From a virus, in the IMG/VR virus record IMGVR_UViG_3300036853_000087, positions 1 through 28,024 of that record: a stretch of DNA of 28,024 nt. One strand, written 5' to 3'. A model generated the notes under the pieces. It made no database searches. It was given only the letters and a program-made list of their open reading frames with translations, and had not been told where the DNA came from. Below, one piece after another: positions 4,694 through 28,024 of this stretch. The number at the start of each line of letters is the position of its first letter. Position 1 is the first letter of the stretch. Made by a program: the position numbers and the translations under genes.

Positions 4694-5280
4694 ACTAACC
4701 TCCGGTGTTTACTCGCAAATAATTCAAGCGCTTGGTCTAATCCCATTTGTCTTTCTTGACCTCCTTTTAAGCTCATCAATGCCTCATCTCCTTTATGCTC
4801 ATAACAATAGCCACATACCCGCTTAAGGTCAAGAATAAGATCTTTCGGCACTTTGGCGGCATCATACCCAGTATTGTAAACAATCTTCCACCGGCCGCCG
4901 CTATATGGTTTAAACTTCTGGAAGCCGCCAGTAATGCCATCCAGCTCGTAGTCGTCATTCGCTGTTTGTATGGTATATACACTATTGCCTGTTTTCAATG
5001 AAGCCGATGTAAGGGACGCCACTGGCCCGTAAGGCAACTCTCTTTCACAATATAAATCAGCGAATAAGGTAATTGTTTTCTCCACCAAGCTAATACAACA
5101 AAATTGCTCAATAGCTGCCCGACATGCTGCAATAAGTTCAGTCAGGTAAACATCATCATCAGAATAGGTGATCTGTAAATGAGCTTTCAATTGAGCTAAA
5201 TTAATTAATTCCGTGGCGCCAGATTCATCAAACTGGCAGTCATGGATATTATTATCAGTATGGCGTGGTAAATAGGTCAT
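4684..5280 (-). CDS. Head-tail connector protein (HK97 gp6-like)
   Basis: The adaptor that joins to the portal after packaging. The segment LINLAQLKAHLQITYSDDDV, then LTELIAACRAAIEQFCCISL, matches the gp6-like connector helices; ELPYGPVASLTSAS and RWKIVYNTGYDAAKVPKDL are further family features. The length of 198 residues is usual. The start overlaps the GT4 gene stop. Its end overlaps the next gene by ten bases. Confidence 0.85.
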   Translation of the reverse strand: MTYLPRHTDNNIHDCQFDESGATELINLAQLKAHLQITYSDDDVYLTELIAACRAAIEQFCCISLVEKTITLFADLYCERELPYGPVASLTSASLKTGNSVYTIQTANDDYELDGITGGFQKFKPYSGGRWKIVYNTGYDAAKVPKDLILDLKRVCGYCYEHKGDEALMSLKGGQERQMGLDQALELFASKHRRLVWL

Positions 5281-6347
5281 AAATACGTAACCCTCCTATG
5301 CTGTTGTTGTGGCCTGCTGGTATTAGCTGCTGTATACAAGAACTTCTCAACCTCCATAAGCCCTTTCTGCGGATCAAGGTCACGGCCCCGGGCTCTGCAC
5401 TTATCACTAACGACCTTGTAATATTTTTTGTCGTTATCCAGCTTTGTTATTTGTTTCACAAGATACGCAATATCGTAAGTATCCCGGTCATCTTTCAATA
5501 TTATCCTATTGGTGTCACGTTCAGGTTCCTCCCTGGCTGGGATATAGATGCCAGCATCAGCACAGTTTTCTTTCAGTCCCTCCGTTGGAGTACATATGAC
5601 AGGTATACCATTACACATCGCCTCTGTGGCAGTCATGCCCCAGCTTTCGTACCTGGAAAGCATAAGTAAAATACGTGTCTGTGCGTACACTTCCAATATG
5701 TTAGGGGTGTTCGGAATAACTTTAACGTTTGGTGGAAAGTTGGATGCCTGGCCGATGTAATGTGGCTCGCTGTAACTGCCCTTAACTGCCAAAAACTTTT
5801 TGTTTGGCATGGCCTCGGCCAGCCGGCGTAGTATAAATCCGCCTTTATTCTCATCCAGGTTTATCAGAGTTATGTATTCATTTTCACGTGGAAACTTACC
5901 TAAATCGAAATAACGGTAGTCAATAGGTGGTGTAAACACCATTGACGGCCATTGGTAATTGAGCTTCTGTTGTATCCATCGGCTATTGTAGAGGCAATAA
6001 TTGTTGCGTCTGGCATTCTGGATGCACTGGTATGGATGCGAATTGTGGATGACGTTGATAATCGGTTTATTGATCGCTTCCGCAATGCCGATGGTATGGT
6101 GTGTGAAGTCAAGGTGCGTTAAGAGCATGTCAGCCCATAAGAACTGATCTGTCGAGCCATTGGGGCCGAAGACTGAAACCCCATCAATGTCGTACGGCAC
6201 CTTAACATTATGCATGATTGCTTGCTGGAGCACTACCCGAACATTATGCCCTTTGCTGACCAGGTACTTGTTGATGTTGTGGGCGTAATATTCGGAGCCG
6301 CAATTGTGGCCGGGTGGATAAAGATGTATATTCCAAAGGAGGTTCAT
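5277..6347 (-). CDS. GT4-type glycosyltransferase
   Basis: The protein has a GT-B plan: N-terminal LYPPGHNCGSEYYAHNINKY (residues 9-28), a donor-domain start at INLDENKGG (162-170), and the GT4 motif RYESWGMTATEAMCNGIPVI (232-251) with the two conserved glutamates (234 and 242). It uses a nucleotide sugar to extend a glycan. It is the last gene of the island; the stop overlaps the start of the head-tail connector gene (ATGA at 5277-5280), so the virion genes and the sugar enzymes are translated together. Confidence 0.88.
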   Translation of the reverse strand: MNLLWNIHLYPPGHNCGSEYYAHNINKYLVSKGHNVRVVLQQAIMHNVKVPYDIDGVSVFGPNGSTDQFLWADMLLTHLDFTHHTIGIAEAINKPIINVIHNSHPYQCIQNARRNNYCLYNSRWIQQKLNYQWPSMVFTPPIDYRYFDLGKFPRENEYITLINLDENKGGFILRRLAEAMPNKKFLAVKGSYSEPHYIGQASNFPPNVKVIPNTPNILEVYAQTRILLMLSRYESWGMTATEAMCNGIPVICTPTEGLKENCADAGIYIPAREEPERDTNRIILKDDRDTYDIAYLVKQITKLDNDKKYYKVVSDKCRARGRDLDPQKGLMEVEKFLYTAANTSRPQQQHRRVTYL

Positions 6348-6351
6348 GCCA

Positions 6352-6603
6352 TTAGTTTTTGATGGTAACAGGGTTTGCCTGAATCCAGTTTCTTTTTTTT
6401 AATTGTATAGTCTTATCTTTCTCAATACCATTCTCTGTCAAGAATGCCATGCCTGTTTTGATATGTAACTTTCTTAATTTAAAGATAGCCACAGTCTCAC
6501 CAGTTCCATTAAAACTTAAAATCTCACCATAATAGGTTTGCCACCCATTAAATGAGCTTTTATGTAAATAAGCTCTATTCCATAATCCTTTATAATGCTC
6601 CAT
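6352..6603 (-). CDS. Small basic hypothetical protein (83 aa)
   Basis: I do not recognise it. The protein is basic with aromatic residues (GLWNRAYLHKSSFNGWQTYY, then AIFKLRKLHIKTGMAFLTE) and looks beta-rich. It sits between two glycosyltransferase genes and overlaps the first. It could be a small partner or accessory of the pathway. Confidence 0.55.
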   Translation of the reverse strand: MEHYKGLWNRAYLHKSSFNGWQTYYGEILSFNGTGETVAIFKLRKLHIKTGMAFLTENGIEKDKTIQLKKRNWIQANPVTIKN

Positions 6604-7396
6604 GTAATTTATTTTCGTAGTTAATCACAGTCCAGTCATCACAATAAATGTCCCGGCCAGTTATATTCGTATACTTCGGACCAAACCAGGGAGATGGTGC
6701 AATTACCCGCTTATCTTTTGCCTCACCCAATATGGCTGCCATGGCGCTGTAGGAGCTATTGCCGATAATGAAGTGGCGGCAGGATTTCATTAGTTTAAAA
6801 TCGTCTATATATGAACTTTCGCCTGAATAAGAAATGGCATATTTATGATCGAATGAATGAAGCATTGCCATAGCAGTATTTGGCTCGTCACTGAAAAGAA
6901 TAAATTTAGTTCCACCAGGCATGCGCTGCATTGCGGCAGAATAGTAATCAATACTTAACCGCGGGTGATAGCCGCCGTCATAATCACCTAGCCTAACATG
7001 TATAGCGCAAACATCCTGCACCCCTGGTTCATCCTTCATCCGCATATAATATTTCACCTCATCAAAGCAATGAGCGAAGTACTTGAACGACTGAAAGTGG
7101 CCTGACAGGTTCCAATTGCCCGGCCCCAGGCGCACATCTTGATACCCCCACTCAACTGGTCGATCACGCCATTGGATACCGGCCGGCATGGCAGGCAAAG
7201 GATTTTTAAAGTATTTCCATACATCAATATCCTCAGAGCTGCCGAAACGCTCTTTATGATCCAGGTTCACCAGAGGCTTGAATACCGGTTGCAGACCGTT
7301 TTTGCGGGCAACACCGATCACGCCGGCTACCTGGAATAACATATTTGCGAATCGACCATAATTACCAATGGATGTCATTGTACAGTAGCCTTTCAT
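6590..7396 (-). CDS. GT11 family alpha-1,2-fucosyltransferase-like protein
   Basis: The protein probably transfers fucose or another deoxy-sugar from a GDP donor. The GT11 signs are GRFANMLFQVAG (residues 14-25, usually G-G-L-G-N-Q-M-F-Q), AIHVRLGDYDGG (131-142), KFILFSDEP (164-172), and MKSCRHFIIGNSSYSAMAA (203-221). It is a full-length small member (268 residues). The ATG at 7394-7396 makes a clean ATGA overlap with the methyltransferase stop, so I prefer it to the ATG at 7414. Its end overlaps the next start by 14 bases. Confidence 0.85.
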   Translation of the reverse strand: MKGYCTMTSIGNYGRFANMLFQVAGVIGVARKNGLQPVFKPLVNLDHKERFGSSEDIDVWKYFKNPLPAMPAGIQWRDRPVEWGYQDVRLGPGNWNLSGHFQSFKYFAHCFDEVKYYMRMKDEPGVQDVCAIHVRLGDYDGGYHPRLSIDYYSAAMQRMPGGTKFILFSDEPNTAMAMLHSFDHKYAISYSGESSYIDDFKLMKSCRHFIIGNSSYSAMAAILGEAKDKRVIAPSPWFGPKYTNITGRDIYCDDWTVINYENKLHGAL

Positions 7397-8019
7397 ACCG
7401 CAACATTTAACCAATTAGTTCTAAAATATTCTCCTGAGTTCTTCAGCCCGTCACCTTTGATCTCAGGGAACAACTTTTTATACTGCTTGTCAACAAAGAC
7501 AAGGTTACCGGTATGGCAAAGCAGGAAGTACCCTTTCTCAATGCCTAGTTTCACCATGGGCAAATAACCCGCCCCGCCCTCCCGATTGAAATGATCGGCA
7601 TCTGGCGGAATGCTGCTGTCGATCTCAATAATAACAACGGCTGGTTTAGATTCCATGGCTTTAAAAATTTGGTAATCGATGCCGTCCACGTCAATGCTTA
7701 ACACGTCGGTTGTTTCATCAATAAAAGCGTTGATATTGGCATCGGAAACAAAAGAACAGATGCTCTTTACATTCTCATTGCCCTGCCAGTTCCTGCAGCA
7801 CTGTTCCCATAAGTCATAATTGGCCTCGATAAACTTTCCGGACCAGCCATTATCGATCAAGAGCGCCGTATTAGAAAGGTATTTACCATTGTGGCCACCG
7901 GTTTCTACGCAGTTGCCTTTTCCGATCTTTATGCGCCTCAATATTTCCTGCAGTAAACCTTCCTCTCCGTTCTGGCTATATACAATGTCTTTTGCGAACT
8001 TATTATAGAACGATAACAT
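7393..8019 (-). CDS. FkbM-like methyltransferase, second type
   Basis: This 208-residue protein is a SAM-dependent methyltransferase: YSQNGEEGLLQEILRRI (residues 14-30), a SAM-site block CVETGGHNGKYLSNTALL (37-54), GKFIEAN (61-67), and VLSIDVDGIDYQIFKAM (106-122). It differs from the other FkbM protein at 10875-11462 in every visible block, so the two probably act on different positions or substrates. Its stop overlaps the fucosyltransferase-like start (ATGA at 7393-7396). Confidence 0.82.
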   Translation of the reverse strand: MLSFYNKFAKDIVYSQNGEEGLLQEILRRIKIGKGNCVETGGHNGKYLSNTALLIDNGWSGKFIEANYDLWEQCCRNWQGNENVKSICSFVSDANINAFIDETTDVLSIDVDGIDYQIFKAMESKPAVVIIEIDSSIPPDADHFNREGGAGYLPMVKLGIEKGYFLLCHTGNLVFVDKQYKKLFPEIKGDGLKNSGEYFRTNWLNVAV

Positions 8020-10874: not shown

Positions 10875-11462
10875 TTATGAATGATTAATAAGTTGCCAGT
10901 TTTCCCAGCAATATGGGTATTGCCAGGTTAATGAATGAGTTTTCCTTAGTTTATCTGCGATCTCCTTGTACCATATTTCGTATGGCAGCCCCTCGATCTG
11001 ATGGAACTGAACCTGAATGTTTTTGATCCGGGTATGCAGGCCGGCGCCAATGATGTGGCTGAGTATATCATACTCTGCGCCCTCGATGTTTATTTTCAGT
11101 AGGTCAATAATAGGCCACCTATTAATGATATTGTTTACATCTACACACTCGTACTCATGATCTCCTTGCTCGAAAGTGCTGGTGTAATAAGCACGACCAC
11201 CGAAAGACATTTTGCCGTTGTGGGTACCGGCTGCTTTATTAATGATTGTCCCATACTTGTAATCTCTAATATATTCTGTTGGCTCAATCACTATCGGACA
11301 GACCATGTAACGATTAAACATTTCAGTAGCCCACTCACCATAATAGGCTCCCAGGTCAATGACAACACTTTCAGGCGTAAGTTCATACTCATATCGCAGT
11401 CGTTCGAGGCGCTGATCTTGCCAGGTGGTCAATGATTCTGGGTGGAGGGATATTTTACTCAT
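10875..11462 (-). CDS. FkbM-family methyltransferase
   Basis: The protein has the SAM-binding motif VVIDLGAYYGEW (residues 33-44), IVIEPTEYI (57-65) and the FkbM hallmark LLKINIEGAEYDIL (121-134). FkbM enzymes O-methylate sugars or small molecules. The length of 195 residues is short but within the range of small members. The start ATG at 11460-11462 overlaps the membrane protein stop. The likely job is to cap or methylate a sugar laid down by the glycosyltransferases nearby. Confidence 0.85.
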   Translation of the reverse strand: MSKISLHPESLTTWQDQRLERLRYEYELTPESVVIDLGAYYGEWATEMFNRYMVCPIVIEPTEYIRDYKYGTIINKAAGTHNGKMSFGGRAYYTSTFEQGDHEYECVDVNNIINRWPIIDLLKINIEGAEYDILSHIIGAGLHTRIKNIQVQFHQIEGLPYEIWYKEIADKLRKTHSLTWQYPYCWENWQLINHS

Positions 11463-11782
11463 TGGTAATTATTTCTTATTTCTTCAAAATAAATTACGCC
11501 TGCATTGGCACGTCTAATATTCCACCCCAGCTTACTGTGCCATGTATACTCAAGCCAATAACTACCGTGATAGCTATAAACAGATACTTCGGACTCTTTA
11601 TTCATCCAATAGGATACAATTTTTTTCTGTCCAGTTATCAATGTAATATTGAATGTTCTTAGTACTTTTGGATCTCCACTTTCCTTTCCTCCAAAATATA
11701 ACAATGCGCCGATTCCGCTCATGAATATGGCGGAAAAAATTATTACTAACAAAACTTCCAAATTTCTCTTTACCCAATTCAT
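11459..11782 (-). CDS. Single-pass membrane protein (107 aa)
   Basis: A short basic N-terminus (MNWVKRNLE) leads into a hydrophobic helix (VLLVIIFSAIFMSGIGALLY, about residues 10-30). The rest, about 75 residues, has mixed strands (TFNITLITGQKKIVSYW, SVYSYHGSYWLEYTWHS). The orientation is probably N-in, C-out, or the helix is an uncleaved signal anchor. I do not recognise the family. It lies between the GT-A-like gene and an FkbM-type gene with ATGA-type overlaps, so it may serve the sugar pathway, for example as a flippase-like partner, or stand apart as a superinfection factor. Confidence 0.6.
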   Translation of the reverse strand: MNWVKRNLEVLLVIIFSAIFMSGIGALLYFGGKESGDPKVLRTFNITLITGQKKIVSYWMNKESEVSVYSYHGSYWLEYTWHSKLGWNIRRANAGVIYFEEIRNNYQ

Positions 11783-12573
11783 ACGAACGAATATTTTGAT
11801 TTGAAATACTTTTGCATATGCCGGTTAAGGTCATCGGTTGCGGTAAAGTCGTTGTTTCTAAGTCGATGGTGATGAAATAAAACAGGGTAGGTATCATTAA
11901 AACCGGTTTTCTCATAGGTAAAGTGCCCGGCGTTATACATGGCGGGCCACCAATGTAAGGGGGTTATTCGCTCCCTGTAGGCTAATGCCGTGAGTATGGC
12001 CTGATCGTGCCGATGTTCTTGGAACTCAGGATGATTAGGCAATTTACTGGAGCTATCATCAATTAATCCTGGGGCCGTACACAATAATAACCATTCTTTG
12101 ACAAATACCCTTGCGCTTTGCGAATTGCGAATAATTATGACACTGGCCTGCACTTGACTGCCATAGTTAGCAAAAGGGTCATTCCTCCAATTGTCATTTA
12201 TTGCCAAAATAACATCCGCCTTACACCAATGAACATGCTGAAACTTATTGCCAAACAGCCAGATATCCCCGGCCATCCGATCAATAATATGGTTCACGTT
12301 GTTGATAATCTCTACACCGGCATCGCAATAAATCAGGTAGTCGCCGTCCTTCATCTTCTTCAGTTCCTGATCGATGAAATAAGGTTTCCAAAGCCAATAC
12401 CCGCAGCCGCGTGGTTGATCCAGGATAGCTTTATTCATTTTCGCGAACTTGACATCAATGTCCTTCAGTCGGTATATCTTCGCCTCATGCACATTGTTCT
12501 GTAATGCACTCGCTTTGCAGATATCCGCGGCCATAGTCATGTTGTCGTCTGTGAAGGTGATGAGGCGGGTCAT
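11779..12573 (-). CDS. GT-A-like glycosyltransferase
   Basis: The 264-residue protein resembles GT-A enzymes: an N-terminal strand (RLITFTDDNM), then GCGYWLWKPYFI (residues 56-67), the acidic motif DYLIYCDAGVEI (78-89), GSQVQASVIIIRN, and RHDQAILTALAY (188-199) near the end. The pattern GYWLWKP-x-x-I plus D-A-G and H-D-Q is that of small sugar transferases from capsule and LPS regions. The acceptor is unknown. It sits between a helical protein and a membrane protein in the sugar-modification island; the ends of both neighbours overlap it. Confidence 0.7.
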   Translation of the reverse strand: MTRLITFTDDNMTMAADICKASALQNNVHEAKIYRLKDIDVKFAKMNKAILDQPRGCGYWLWKPYFIDQELKKMKDGDYLIYCDAGVEIINNVNHIIDRMAGDIWLFGNKFQHVHWCKADVILAINDNWRNDPFANYGSQVQASVIIIRNSQSARVFVKEWLLLCTAPGLIDDSSSKLPNHPEFQEHRHDQAILTALAYRERITPLHWWPAMYNAGHFTYEKTGFNDTYPVLFHHHRLRNNDFTATDDLNRHMQKYFKSKYSFV

Positions 12574-13171: not shown

Positions 13172-13343
13172 GTTTCTTATTATTAATAGTATCCTTTACA
13201 AACCAAAATGCAACCCAACCTAGCCTTATTTCAAATGACCATGATCGCCTGATTGTAGTGAAAGGTGGATCTACAATGAACATAATTCCAATCCCGCAAA
13301 ACTTACTTGTTGTATAAAGACAATATGGCCTCTGCTTCTTCAT
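13152..13343 (-). CDS. Small phage hypothetical protein (63 aa)
   Basis: The run IVDPPFTTIRRSWSFEIRLG followed by WVAFWFVKD is a pattern I recall from small phage proteins of Bacteroidota with no known role. The middle is aromatic and basic. The ATG overlaps the GT25-like stop (ATGA at 13340-13343), and its end overlaps the next start by 20 bases. Confidence 0.6.
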   Translation of the reverse strand: MKKQRPYCLYTTSKFCGIGIMFIVDPPFTTIRRSWSFEIRLGWVAFWFVKDTINNKKHDASKF

Positions 13344-13936
13344 ACAAGTTTCATTTGACTTTCCTTAAATATGTTCTCATAGTTCACCACTTCATTCCAT
13401 ATAGCCGATTTACGGGGCCGCTGGTAAGCCAGAAAGGGCTTGCATACATAAGCCTTCCAGTTGGGTAGCTGACCGGCCAACCAGTTATCATACATCTGTT
13501 CGCTTTCTCCCGGGTGGTTGTCCAGGATAAACTTAACGATCGGCTTCCGGTACACTACTGCATGGGTAGTCCAGCAATCACTCACCCGGTAAATGTGCTG
13601 ACTGATACGCTGCGGCTTTTCATCACGAATATTGGCACCCAGGTAGAATATATCAAAGTCTTTCGGCAGCTCACGCAGCACCTTCGACATAAGATGCAGA
13701 TCGCGAAACTCACAATCATCTTCAAGGAAAAGCAACGTATGGTCTTTACTTTCAAAGAACTCTTTTAGGATTTGATAGGTAGAAAGATTAAATGATTGAT
13801 GAGGCCCTATTGATGGAATAGCCTGGAATGGCCTTGCCTTCAACCCAACTGCGTTAAACTCGGCCTCTGCATATGTCCATTCGTCGCCGCCGAGGGTGAG
13901 GCAAGTAATACGGTCGAAGAAGTTCCAGTTATTCAT
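13340..13936 (-). CDS. GT25-like glycosyltransferase
   Basis: The protein probably transfers a sugar to a glycan or protein. The GT25 signs are DRITCLTLGG at the N-terminus (usually D-K-I-x-x-I-x-L), the acidic motif LLFLEDDCEF (residues 68-77), DIFYLGANI (95-103), and THAVVYRKPIVKFIL (124-138) followed by MYDNWLAG (148-155). The start at the second ATG (13934-13936) is supported by AAGGAGG at 13943-13949 with six-base spacing, as seen in two accessory genes. It is the first gene of the sugar-modification island behind the capsid gene and overlaps the gene upstream. Confidence 0.8.
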   Translation of the reverse strand: MNNWNFFDRITCLTLGGDEWTYAEAEFNAVGLKARPFQAIPSIGPHQSFNLSTYQILKEFFESKDHTLLFLEDDCEFRDLHLMSKVLRELPKDFDIFYLGANIRDEKPQRISQHIYRVSDCWTTHAVVYRKPIVKFILDNHPGESEQMYDNWLAGQLPNWKAYVCKPFLAYQRPRKSAIWNEVVNYENIFKESQMKLV

Positions 13937-14180
13937 CATTCGCCTCCTTTTCAAGCTGTTCCGCATTCTCCTTTAAATAAGCACCAATCTTTTTATGCAT
14001 CTCGCCTTGATGCAAAGTGCCGAATCCTCTGAACTTAACACGGGCTGGATAGCACTCAACAATTTCCTTTTCTTCATTTAAATCAACAACCAACGCCCAT
14101 CCAAAGGCATGTAGGATGGTATTAACAAACATAAATAAACCGGTATCCCGGAACTCCTGCCATGATTTCTTTGTTACCAT
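13929..14180 (-). CDS. Small phage protein after capsid gene (83 aa)
   Basis: The segment SWQEFRDTGLFMFVNTILHA, then FGWALVVDL and ECYPARVKFRGFG, is a pattern I recall from small proteins next to head or tail genes in many phages of Bacteroidota and Firmicutes, listed only as hypothetical. The ATG at 14178-14180 begins MVTKKSW; an in-frame TTG at 14187-14189 is less likely. It lies just past the hairpin pair behind the capsid gene and overlaps the glycosyltransferase start. Confidence 0.65.
   Translation of the reverse strand: MVTKKSWQEFRDTGLFMFVNTILHAFGWALVVDLNEEKEIVECYPARVKFRGFGTLHQGEMHKKIGAYLKENAEQLEKEANDE
13943..13949 (-). promoter_or_regulatory. Shine-Dalgarno site deciding the GT25-like start
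   Basis: AAGGAGG lies six bases before the ATG at 13934-13936 and three before the ATG at 13937-13939. The six-base spacing matches the other two clear sites in the window, so 13936 is preferred over 13966 as the start. Confidence 0.7.
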
Positions 14181-27361: not shown

Positions 27362-28024
27362 TGTTCAATCGCTTTGAAGATTTGATAAACCAATTGGGGT
27401 ACAACTGCATTACCCAACGCCTTTATGCTTTCTCTTCGCCATCTTGGAAAGGTAATATCAGCCAGTCTGCTGGATAACCCATCATCTCCGCCACAAACAG
27501 GGGATTGAGTTGGGAAGTCTTGCCAGCTGTAAATGCCATCAAATCGTTCAATGATTGATTGTGATCGCCCCCTGTTCGATTCGTCATGCCTGATCTGTAA
27601 TCCGAAAGGCTTGGCGTCGGTAATAATCCCCTCTGTAATAATTCCCCTAACGTCATCCCAAACCCGTTCCCGCTGTAGTTTGTTCCGTTCTTCCCGTTGT
27701 TCCTCGCTTTCATTCTCTTTCTTCGGGCATCGATCTTGTTTAATTCCGTTGTGCTGGCCGAATCCACCACTGTTGGCGTGGGCAATAAACCATATCCGAT
27801 CTCGTCTGTGGGGAGCGTTGACACCTGCAGCTGGAAGTAAAAACGAGAGCACTTCGTAGCCTTCAGCTTCCAGGTCAGCTTGCACCTCGTCGAATACCAG
27901 CCCTCCATTCCAATTAGTAAGCCCGCGAACGTTCTCACCCACAACCCATTCCGGTTGAATTTCCCGAATTGCTCTAAGCATTTCCGGCCACAGGTGGCGG
28001 TCATCTTCTTTACCTTTTCGCTTC
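27340..28024 (-). CDS. DNA (cytosine-5) methyltransferase, C-terminal part (N-terminus beyond window)
   Basis: The protein transfers a methyl group from S-adenosylmethionine to C5 of cytosine in DNA, probably to protect or mark phage DNA. The frame is open from the right edge: before the first in-window ATG (27981) it reads KRKGKEDDRHLWPE, so the true start and the catalytic PCQ motif lie outside. Seen here are the ENV motif in VVGENVRGL, the RRDRIWFIA block (motif VIII) and the C-terminal ALGNAVVPQ block (motif X). About 227 residues are visible. The stretch between motifs VIII and X, normally target-recognition sequence, is low in recognisable features and also encodes a second frame (27423-28004). 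The gene ends inside the start of the downstream nuclease-like gene, overlapping it by 22 bases. The target sequence cannot be told from this fragment. Confidence 0.93.
   Translation of the reverse strand, partial: KRKGKEDDRHLWPEMLRAIREIQPEWVVGENVRGLTNWNGGLVFDEVQADLEAEGYEVLSFLLPAAGVNAPHRRDRIWFIAHANSGGFGQHNGIKQDRCPKKENESEEQREERNKLQRERVWDDVRGIITEGIITDAKPFGLQIRHDESNRGRSQSIIERFDGIYSWQDFPTQSPVCGGDDGLSSRLADITFPRWRRESIKALGNAVVPQLVYQIFKAIEQWQLNQP
27423..28004 (-). CDS. Alternate-frame ORF inside the methyltransferase gene, LLPTP-type phage protein
   Basis: This 193-residue frame lies wholly within the cytosine methyltransferase gene in another frame. It does not look like a random shadow. It carries GLLPTPTVVDS and later GLLPTPSLSDY, then ends with LNPLFVAEMMGYPADW and ILPF. 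I recall the LPTP-x-x-D and LNP-F-MMG-P-W blocks, and its MTATCGRKCLE start, from proteins listed as methylase-like or hypothetical in phages of gut and soil Bacteroidota. The ATG at 28002-28004 follows an AAGG-containing purine run. The frame is also open up to the window edge. Possible explanations are a true overlapping gene, a product made by frameshifting from the methyltransferase, or a conserved by-product of methyltransferase codons. No function can be assigned. Confidence 0.5.
   Translation of the reverse strand: MTATCGRKCLEQFGKFNRNGLWVRTFAGLLIGMEGWYSTRCKLTWKLKATKCSRFYFQLQVSTLPTDEIGYGLLPTPTVVDSASTTELNKIDARRKRMKARNNGKNGTNYSGNGFGMTLGELLQRGLLPTPSLSDYRSGMTNRTGGDHNQSLNDLMAFTAGKTSQLNPLFVAEMMGYPADWLILPFQDGEEKA

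Follow-up and report, generated by a model that had tools for sequence, protein, structure and literature searches.

A phage cytosine-5 DNA methyltransferase gene that very probably encodes both chains of a two-subunit enzyme in nested reading frames

Introduction

A cytosine-5 DNA methyltransferase gene at the end of a virus contig contains a second long reading frame, lying over some of the enzyme's own conserved motifs. Is this frame a protein-coding gene, and if so, what does its product have to do with the methyltransferase in which it is embedded? We examined this question in the window, by which we mean the whole 28,024-base stretch of DNA analysed here, and in relatives of the locus from viral contigs and bacterial genomes. 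The main-frame product is referred to as α and the product of the second frame as β. In single-chain cytosine-5 methyltransferases, motif IX is part of the small, target-recognising domain, and the fate of this motif proved central to the reading of the locus given below.

Results

A second reading frame inside the methyltransferase gene

The features of the locus are listed in Table 1. In the window, α carries motifs VI, VIII and X and no motif IX, its 5′ part lying beyond the contig end; it scored 75.3 bits against PF00145, for which the curated cut-off is 22. β matched PHROG_1008 (E 2.6e-17), and this was its sole PHROG match. An earlier reading made from the sequence alone (the sequence-only reading) had recorded a 193-residue ORF in another frame over the methyltransferase gene, and this ORF is indeed present, in the +1 frame of α. 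The C-terminal LNP-F-MMGYP-W block attributed to it was found as LNPLFVAEMMGYPADW. Both of the reported LLPTP motifs were also found, with three residues before the D and not two. They had been placed over RIWFIAHANSG of the main frame; this applies to the first, which lies on IWFIAHANSGG, and the second lies on EGIITDAKPFG instead. Along the DNA, the order is motif VIII (α), motif IX (β), the β stop (27423) and motif X (α). Since the window is a virus contig of 28,024 bases, both reading frames lack their 5′ part here, and because the β frame is open up to the contig end (28022) the true β start may lie outside the window.

Table 1. Features of the methyltransferase locus in the window
Feature	Position	Strand	Details
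Window record			IMGVR_UViG_3300036853_000087, 28,024 bases, virus contig
α, cytosine-5 DNA methyltransferase, 5′-truncated by contig end	27340..28023	(-)	227 aa; PF00145 E 7.5e-21; phrog_363 E 3.6e-38
β, nested ORF in the +1 frame of α	27423..28022	(-)	199 codons open to contig end; PHROG_1008 family
β from ATG to stop	28004-27423	(-)	193 aa
Candidate β start codon, ATG	28002..28004	(-)	position where 78/102 relatives have ATG
α motif VI, GENV	27928..27939	(-)	overlaps β block GLWVRTFAGLLIGMEGW
α motif VIII, RRDRIWFIAH	27775..27804	(-)	sequence; profile comparison
β first LLPTPxxxD motif, LLPTP-TVV-D	27762..27788	(-)	sequence, alignment
β second LLPTPxxxD motif, LLPTP-SLS-D	27600..27626	(-)	sequence, alignment
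β motif-IX-like block, LNPLFVAEMMGYPADW	27462..27509	(-)	aligned by profile with motif IX of ordinary m5C methyltransferases
α motif X, ALGNAVVPQ	27394..27420	(-)	directly 3′ of β stop codon

A VRR-NUC nuclease-like gene (PF08774; 27032-27361, minus strand) shares 22 nt with the 3′ end of the methyltransferase gene, and a VRR-NUC gene is also found within a few kb of the methyltransferase in Bacteroides phage BS-TP4. Elsewhere in the window, Pfam glycosyltransferases (PF00534, PF01531) and FkbM-type methyltransferases (PF05050) occur among phage head and tail genes, on the minus strand at 5277-6347, 6590-7414, 7393-8019 (PF05050 weak) and 10875-11462. Two further minus-strand genes, at 11779-12573 and 13340-13966, look similar in kind and have no Pfam match. 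These glycosyltransferase and FkbM-type genes possibly modify glycans of the virion or of the host surface.

The alternate frame is open far beyond chance

Among viral contigs, the alternate-frame query retrieved 271 relatives and the main-frame query 436. Two ORFs in the same +1 overlap were present in the 155 fetched loci that had both matches on the plus strand, among them loci found via the main frame alone. As a null model, synonymous codons were permuted within each gene, leaving the protein and its codon usage unchanged. For the window gene, the permutation gave a mean of 5.0 stops in the alternate frame, and the frame was open in 0.5% of shuffles. For 106 distinct loci the mean was 6.6 stops over 252 codons, with 0.24% of shuffles open. 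The alternate frame was actually open in 104 of these 106 loci, compared to a P(open) of 0.0024 per locus. Each of the two exceptions has a single nonsense codon, inside the β frame in L085 and in the main frame in L106. An alternate frame broken by stops beside an intact methyltransferase, the pattern that the sequence-only reading had set against dual coding, was thus found in only one of the 106 related loci (L085).

The same reading had voiced the worry that the motifs were a by-product of constraint on the main frame, an explanation under which the amino-acid and codon constraints of the methyltransferase would by themselves keep the +1 frame open. The position of the LPTP motif on the conserved motif VIII speaks for it. 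However, the shuffles described above keep both the protein and its codon usage and still leave several stops in the frame. Ordinary methyltransferases likewise have the expected number: 53 enzymes sampled from PF00145 in Pseudomonadota and Bacteroidota genomes showed no depletion of stops in the +1 frame (11.7 compared to 11.2 in the null model), and the sole fully open +1 frame of the sample, L391, is a copy of the nested family. On the strength of the synonymous permutation and the PF00145 sample we reject the by-product explanation, whose probability we regard as close to nil; the suppression of synonymous variation and the lack of stop-creating substitutions reported next also argue against it.

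Purifying selection acts on both frames

Synonymous variation in α was 0.85-0.96 of expectation upstream of the β ORF, fell to as low as 0.15-0.35 of expectation over the β motifs, and rose again to 0.81-0.85 of expectation past the β stop. This synonymous-site comparison, which had been proposed as a check for additional constraint, therefore revealed clear extra constraint in the codon statistics. Substitution rates were determined over 32 disjoint pairs of relatives, with the first letter of each class denoting the main frame and the second the alternate frame, and were 0.158 for SS, 0.040 for SN, 0.029 for NS and 0.0048 for NN. From these rates, omega comes to about 0.17 in the alternate frame and to about 0.12 in the main frame. 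In the same 32 pairs, changes creating a stop in β while leaving the main frame stop-free numbered 0 of about 2070 weighted opportunities. Purifying selection acts on both frames, and dual coding of the locus is supported. The extent of 580 bases first suggested for the dual-coding region was too short, as the overlap in relatives spans about 215-310 codons.

β carries the motif that α lacks

Comparison of the α profile with ordinary enzymes using hhalign covered motifs I-VIII (P 6e-39) and X, and skipped motif IX. A motif-pattern scan found an ordinary-type motif IX in 0 of 237 nested α sequences; an ordinary motif IX was present in 44 of the sampled PF00145 enzymes. The C-terminus of β, LNPxFVxEMMGxPxxW, lines up with ordinary enzymes at motif IX, which is also the best local match of the β profile to those enzymes, with KTSQLNPLFVAEMMGYPADWLI aligned to NPRRLTPRECARLMGFPDTFRI (P 0.0046, or P 0.0099 with a more diverse β set). 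Taken by itself the match is weak, being just 22 columns long with an hhalign probability of 4-8%, and it gains its weight from the absence of motif IX from α and from the fused and split loci.

Three architectures were distinguished by motif patterns, and the counts are partial because 52 loci were classed as 'other' and 49 have truncated α matches. In 237 loci motif IX is in β only and motif X is in α. Five fused loci (L284, L293, L402, L441 and L471) have motifs I-VIII, a β-type motif IX and motif X in a single ORF, and no β ORF with motif IX remains in them. In five split loci (L253, L282, L286, L288 and L458) α ends just past motif VIII and the +1 ORF holds motifs IX and X. Comparing the fused and split versions may reveal how the motif IX domain changes frame through frameshifts. 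As β carries the sole standard motif that is absent from α, both halves of the enzyme are probably encoded in the same stretch of DNA. Collectively, these results make it very probable that the locus encodes a two-subunit m5C methyltransferase with β nested in α.

A stand-alone β without a methyltransferase was sought in all fetched loci and only one case was seen: at L287:3001-3693, a β C-terminus with motifs IX and X directly follows an unrelated integrase-like ORF, with no catalytic half. This arrangement is a remnant or a recombination product, and as it is the sole case among the fetched loci there is no clear stand-alone β family.

Structure and database searches on β

No Pfam match to β was obtained at E <= 1, NCBIfam returned nothing relevant, and the β profile had no match among PDB sequences. 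The blocks LTWKLK..RFYFQL and LLIGMEGW of β have no counterpart in single-chain enzymes. The AlphaFold model of β had a pLDDT of 61 and was uninformative, and its Foldseek matches were unnamed or misnamed copies. In the AlphaFold model of the fused protein L402 only the catalytic domain was confident, most of the small-domain part having a pLDDT of 30-50; its PDB match, to M.HhaI, covered about 160 catalytic-domain columns only. Pieces of β were matched by PHROG_1008, PHROG_31772, PHROG_26627 and PHROG_27243, which are named DNA methyltransferase or unknown, and these four families may need re-annotation.

The shortness of the motif IX match, the large part of β that is without counterpart in single-chain enzymes and the lack of PDB and Pfam matches are what one might expect if β were a real overprinted protein that resembled motif IX by coincidence and had an independent function, for example in anti-restriction or in regulating the methyltransferase. 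We consider this unlikely, since a coincidence does not account for the lack of motif IX in α in all 237 nested loci, for the five fused loci that hold the same block in frame between motifs VIII and X, or for the five split loci that place motif IX together with X in the β frame.

A conserved candidate start codon

At the conserved β start, which lies over a conserved E-D-D/E-R stretch of α, an ATG is found in 78 relatives out of 102, compared to 45 expected from synonymous shuffles. A quarter of the Bacteroidota-type loci have no ATG at this position. Upstream of the conserved start, the +1 frame usually continues without a stop for about 35-45 codons, so loci that lack the conserved ATG may begin further upstream. 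The upstream opening would also suit a different product, in which β is a +1 frameshift extension of α and the chimera carries α motifs I-IV followed by β sequence; the occurrence of fused single-chain genes points the same way. Against this, ATG is enriched at a single conserved position, and a shift before the conserved β region would drop motifs VI-VIII and X of α. A frameshift chimera is therefore very improbable.

Distribution and existing annotation

In Bacteroidota genomes, all 80 loci, which were found through the β frame, had both frames in +1 overlap. A further 96 loci from Bacteroidota, Bacillota, Pseudomonadota and a cyanophage showed the same +1 relation, and the nested pair is also present in Paenibacillus and Lactobacillus phages, phage N15, Burkholderia and Xanthomonas phages and a cyanophage. 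PHROG_1008 matches were found in 0 of 14 control genomes, 10 of which had PF00145 matches, and in 17 of 299 Pseudomonadota genomes. The nested arrangement recurs across hundreds of phages and prophages.

Annotations of the nested ORF exist but are sporadic. DIVA_50 of Paenibacillus phage Diva is listed as 'g49 internal gene', and XYR92586 of Xanthomonas phage PhiXhv-18 as a second 'DNA methyltransferase'; these annotations, as hypothetical protein or second DNA methyltransferase, state no subunit role. The phage family PHROG_1008 ('DNA methyltransferase') is matched by β of the window and by all tested relatives, and its name gives no hint that the family comes from the +1 frame of the PHROG_363 methyltransferase gene. 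No paper describing the nested phage family was found in the literature searched. Plasmid matches in Klebsiella aerogenes and Citrobacter were checked for systems of the EaeI or CfrI type, and no restriction gene was annotated adjacent to them.

Discussion

Together, these results suggest an enzyme divided between two chains that are read from the same DNA. The main-frame product, α, would be the catalytic domain and bear motifs I-VIII and X, and the +1-frame product, β, would contribute the LLPTP region of the small domain as well as motif IX. β would most likely be made by internal translation initiation within the α message, and the two chains are predicted to associate into one active enzyme. 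The assembled enzyme would then methylate phage DNA, probably as a defence against host restriction, since a solo methyltransferase in a phage most simply protects the phage DNA in this way. The computations show that the locus is dual-coding, that both frames are under purifying selection, that the motifs are placed in a complementary way and that fused and split versions occur naturally; translation of β, its physical association with α, the methylation activity and the protective role are inferred.

A more speculative extension concerns the two variable regions. Those of α and, out of frame, of β might both be DNA-recognition surfaces, such that one mutation or indel there would change both halves of the specificity, and the nested, split and fused forms might interconvert by single frameshifts. 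We regard this as rather doubtful.

The near-complete nesting of a subunit in the gene of its partner, kept in several bacterial phyla and in their phages, provides a strong example from nature of dual coding that has been sustained, and the existence of nested, split and fused versions makes the evolution of overlapping genes directly testable. Public database entries for the most part label the nested frame 'hypothetical protein' or list it as a duplicate 'DNA methyltransferase'. If β is needed for activity, cloning α by itself or optimising its codons would yield an inactive protein, with consequences for all functional screens of these phage methyltransferases.

Three known systems invite comparison. 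The ShiLan domain is a hidden HNH endonuclease that is read out of frame in a phage methylase and is a mobile insertion (PMC11855218). What our locus shares with it is a second protein encoded out of frame inside the gene for a phage DNA methylase. In contrast to ShiLan, β lies over the enzyme's conserved core, and almost every member of the family has it. A hidden HNH or other mobile insertion was rejected for this locus, as there was no HNH match in Pfam and no insertion boundary.

M.AquI has the catalytic motifs I-VIII on one chain, and its small chain bears both IX and X (PMC3404938). The five split loci share this layout, with motifs IX and X on the second chain, and they are the only relatives that have it. 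The window differs from M.AquI in that motif X stays on α and β is nested in the other frame.

Two-polypeptide YGGCCR cytosine-5 methyltransferases are represented by M.EcoHK31I and M.EaeI. The small chain of M.EcoHK31I has 176 aa, and its gene is reportedly nested, in another reading frame, in the gene for the large chain. In the account given in PMC3404938, citing Lee, Kam and Shaw 1995, the larger subunit of M.EcoHK31I has motifs I-VIII and X together with a predicted TRD, and the smaller subunit has motif IX only. Judged by this described motif layout, the phage pair is of the same kind, α having motifs I-VIII and X without IX, and β having IX. Unlike M.EcoHK31I, the phage family consists of solo loci in phages and prophages, with no restriction enzyme noticed adjacent, extends over several phyla, and has a longer β of about 190-300 aa. 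The phage family is most likely a widespread new addition to the known two-subunit m5C methyltransferases.
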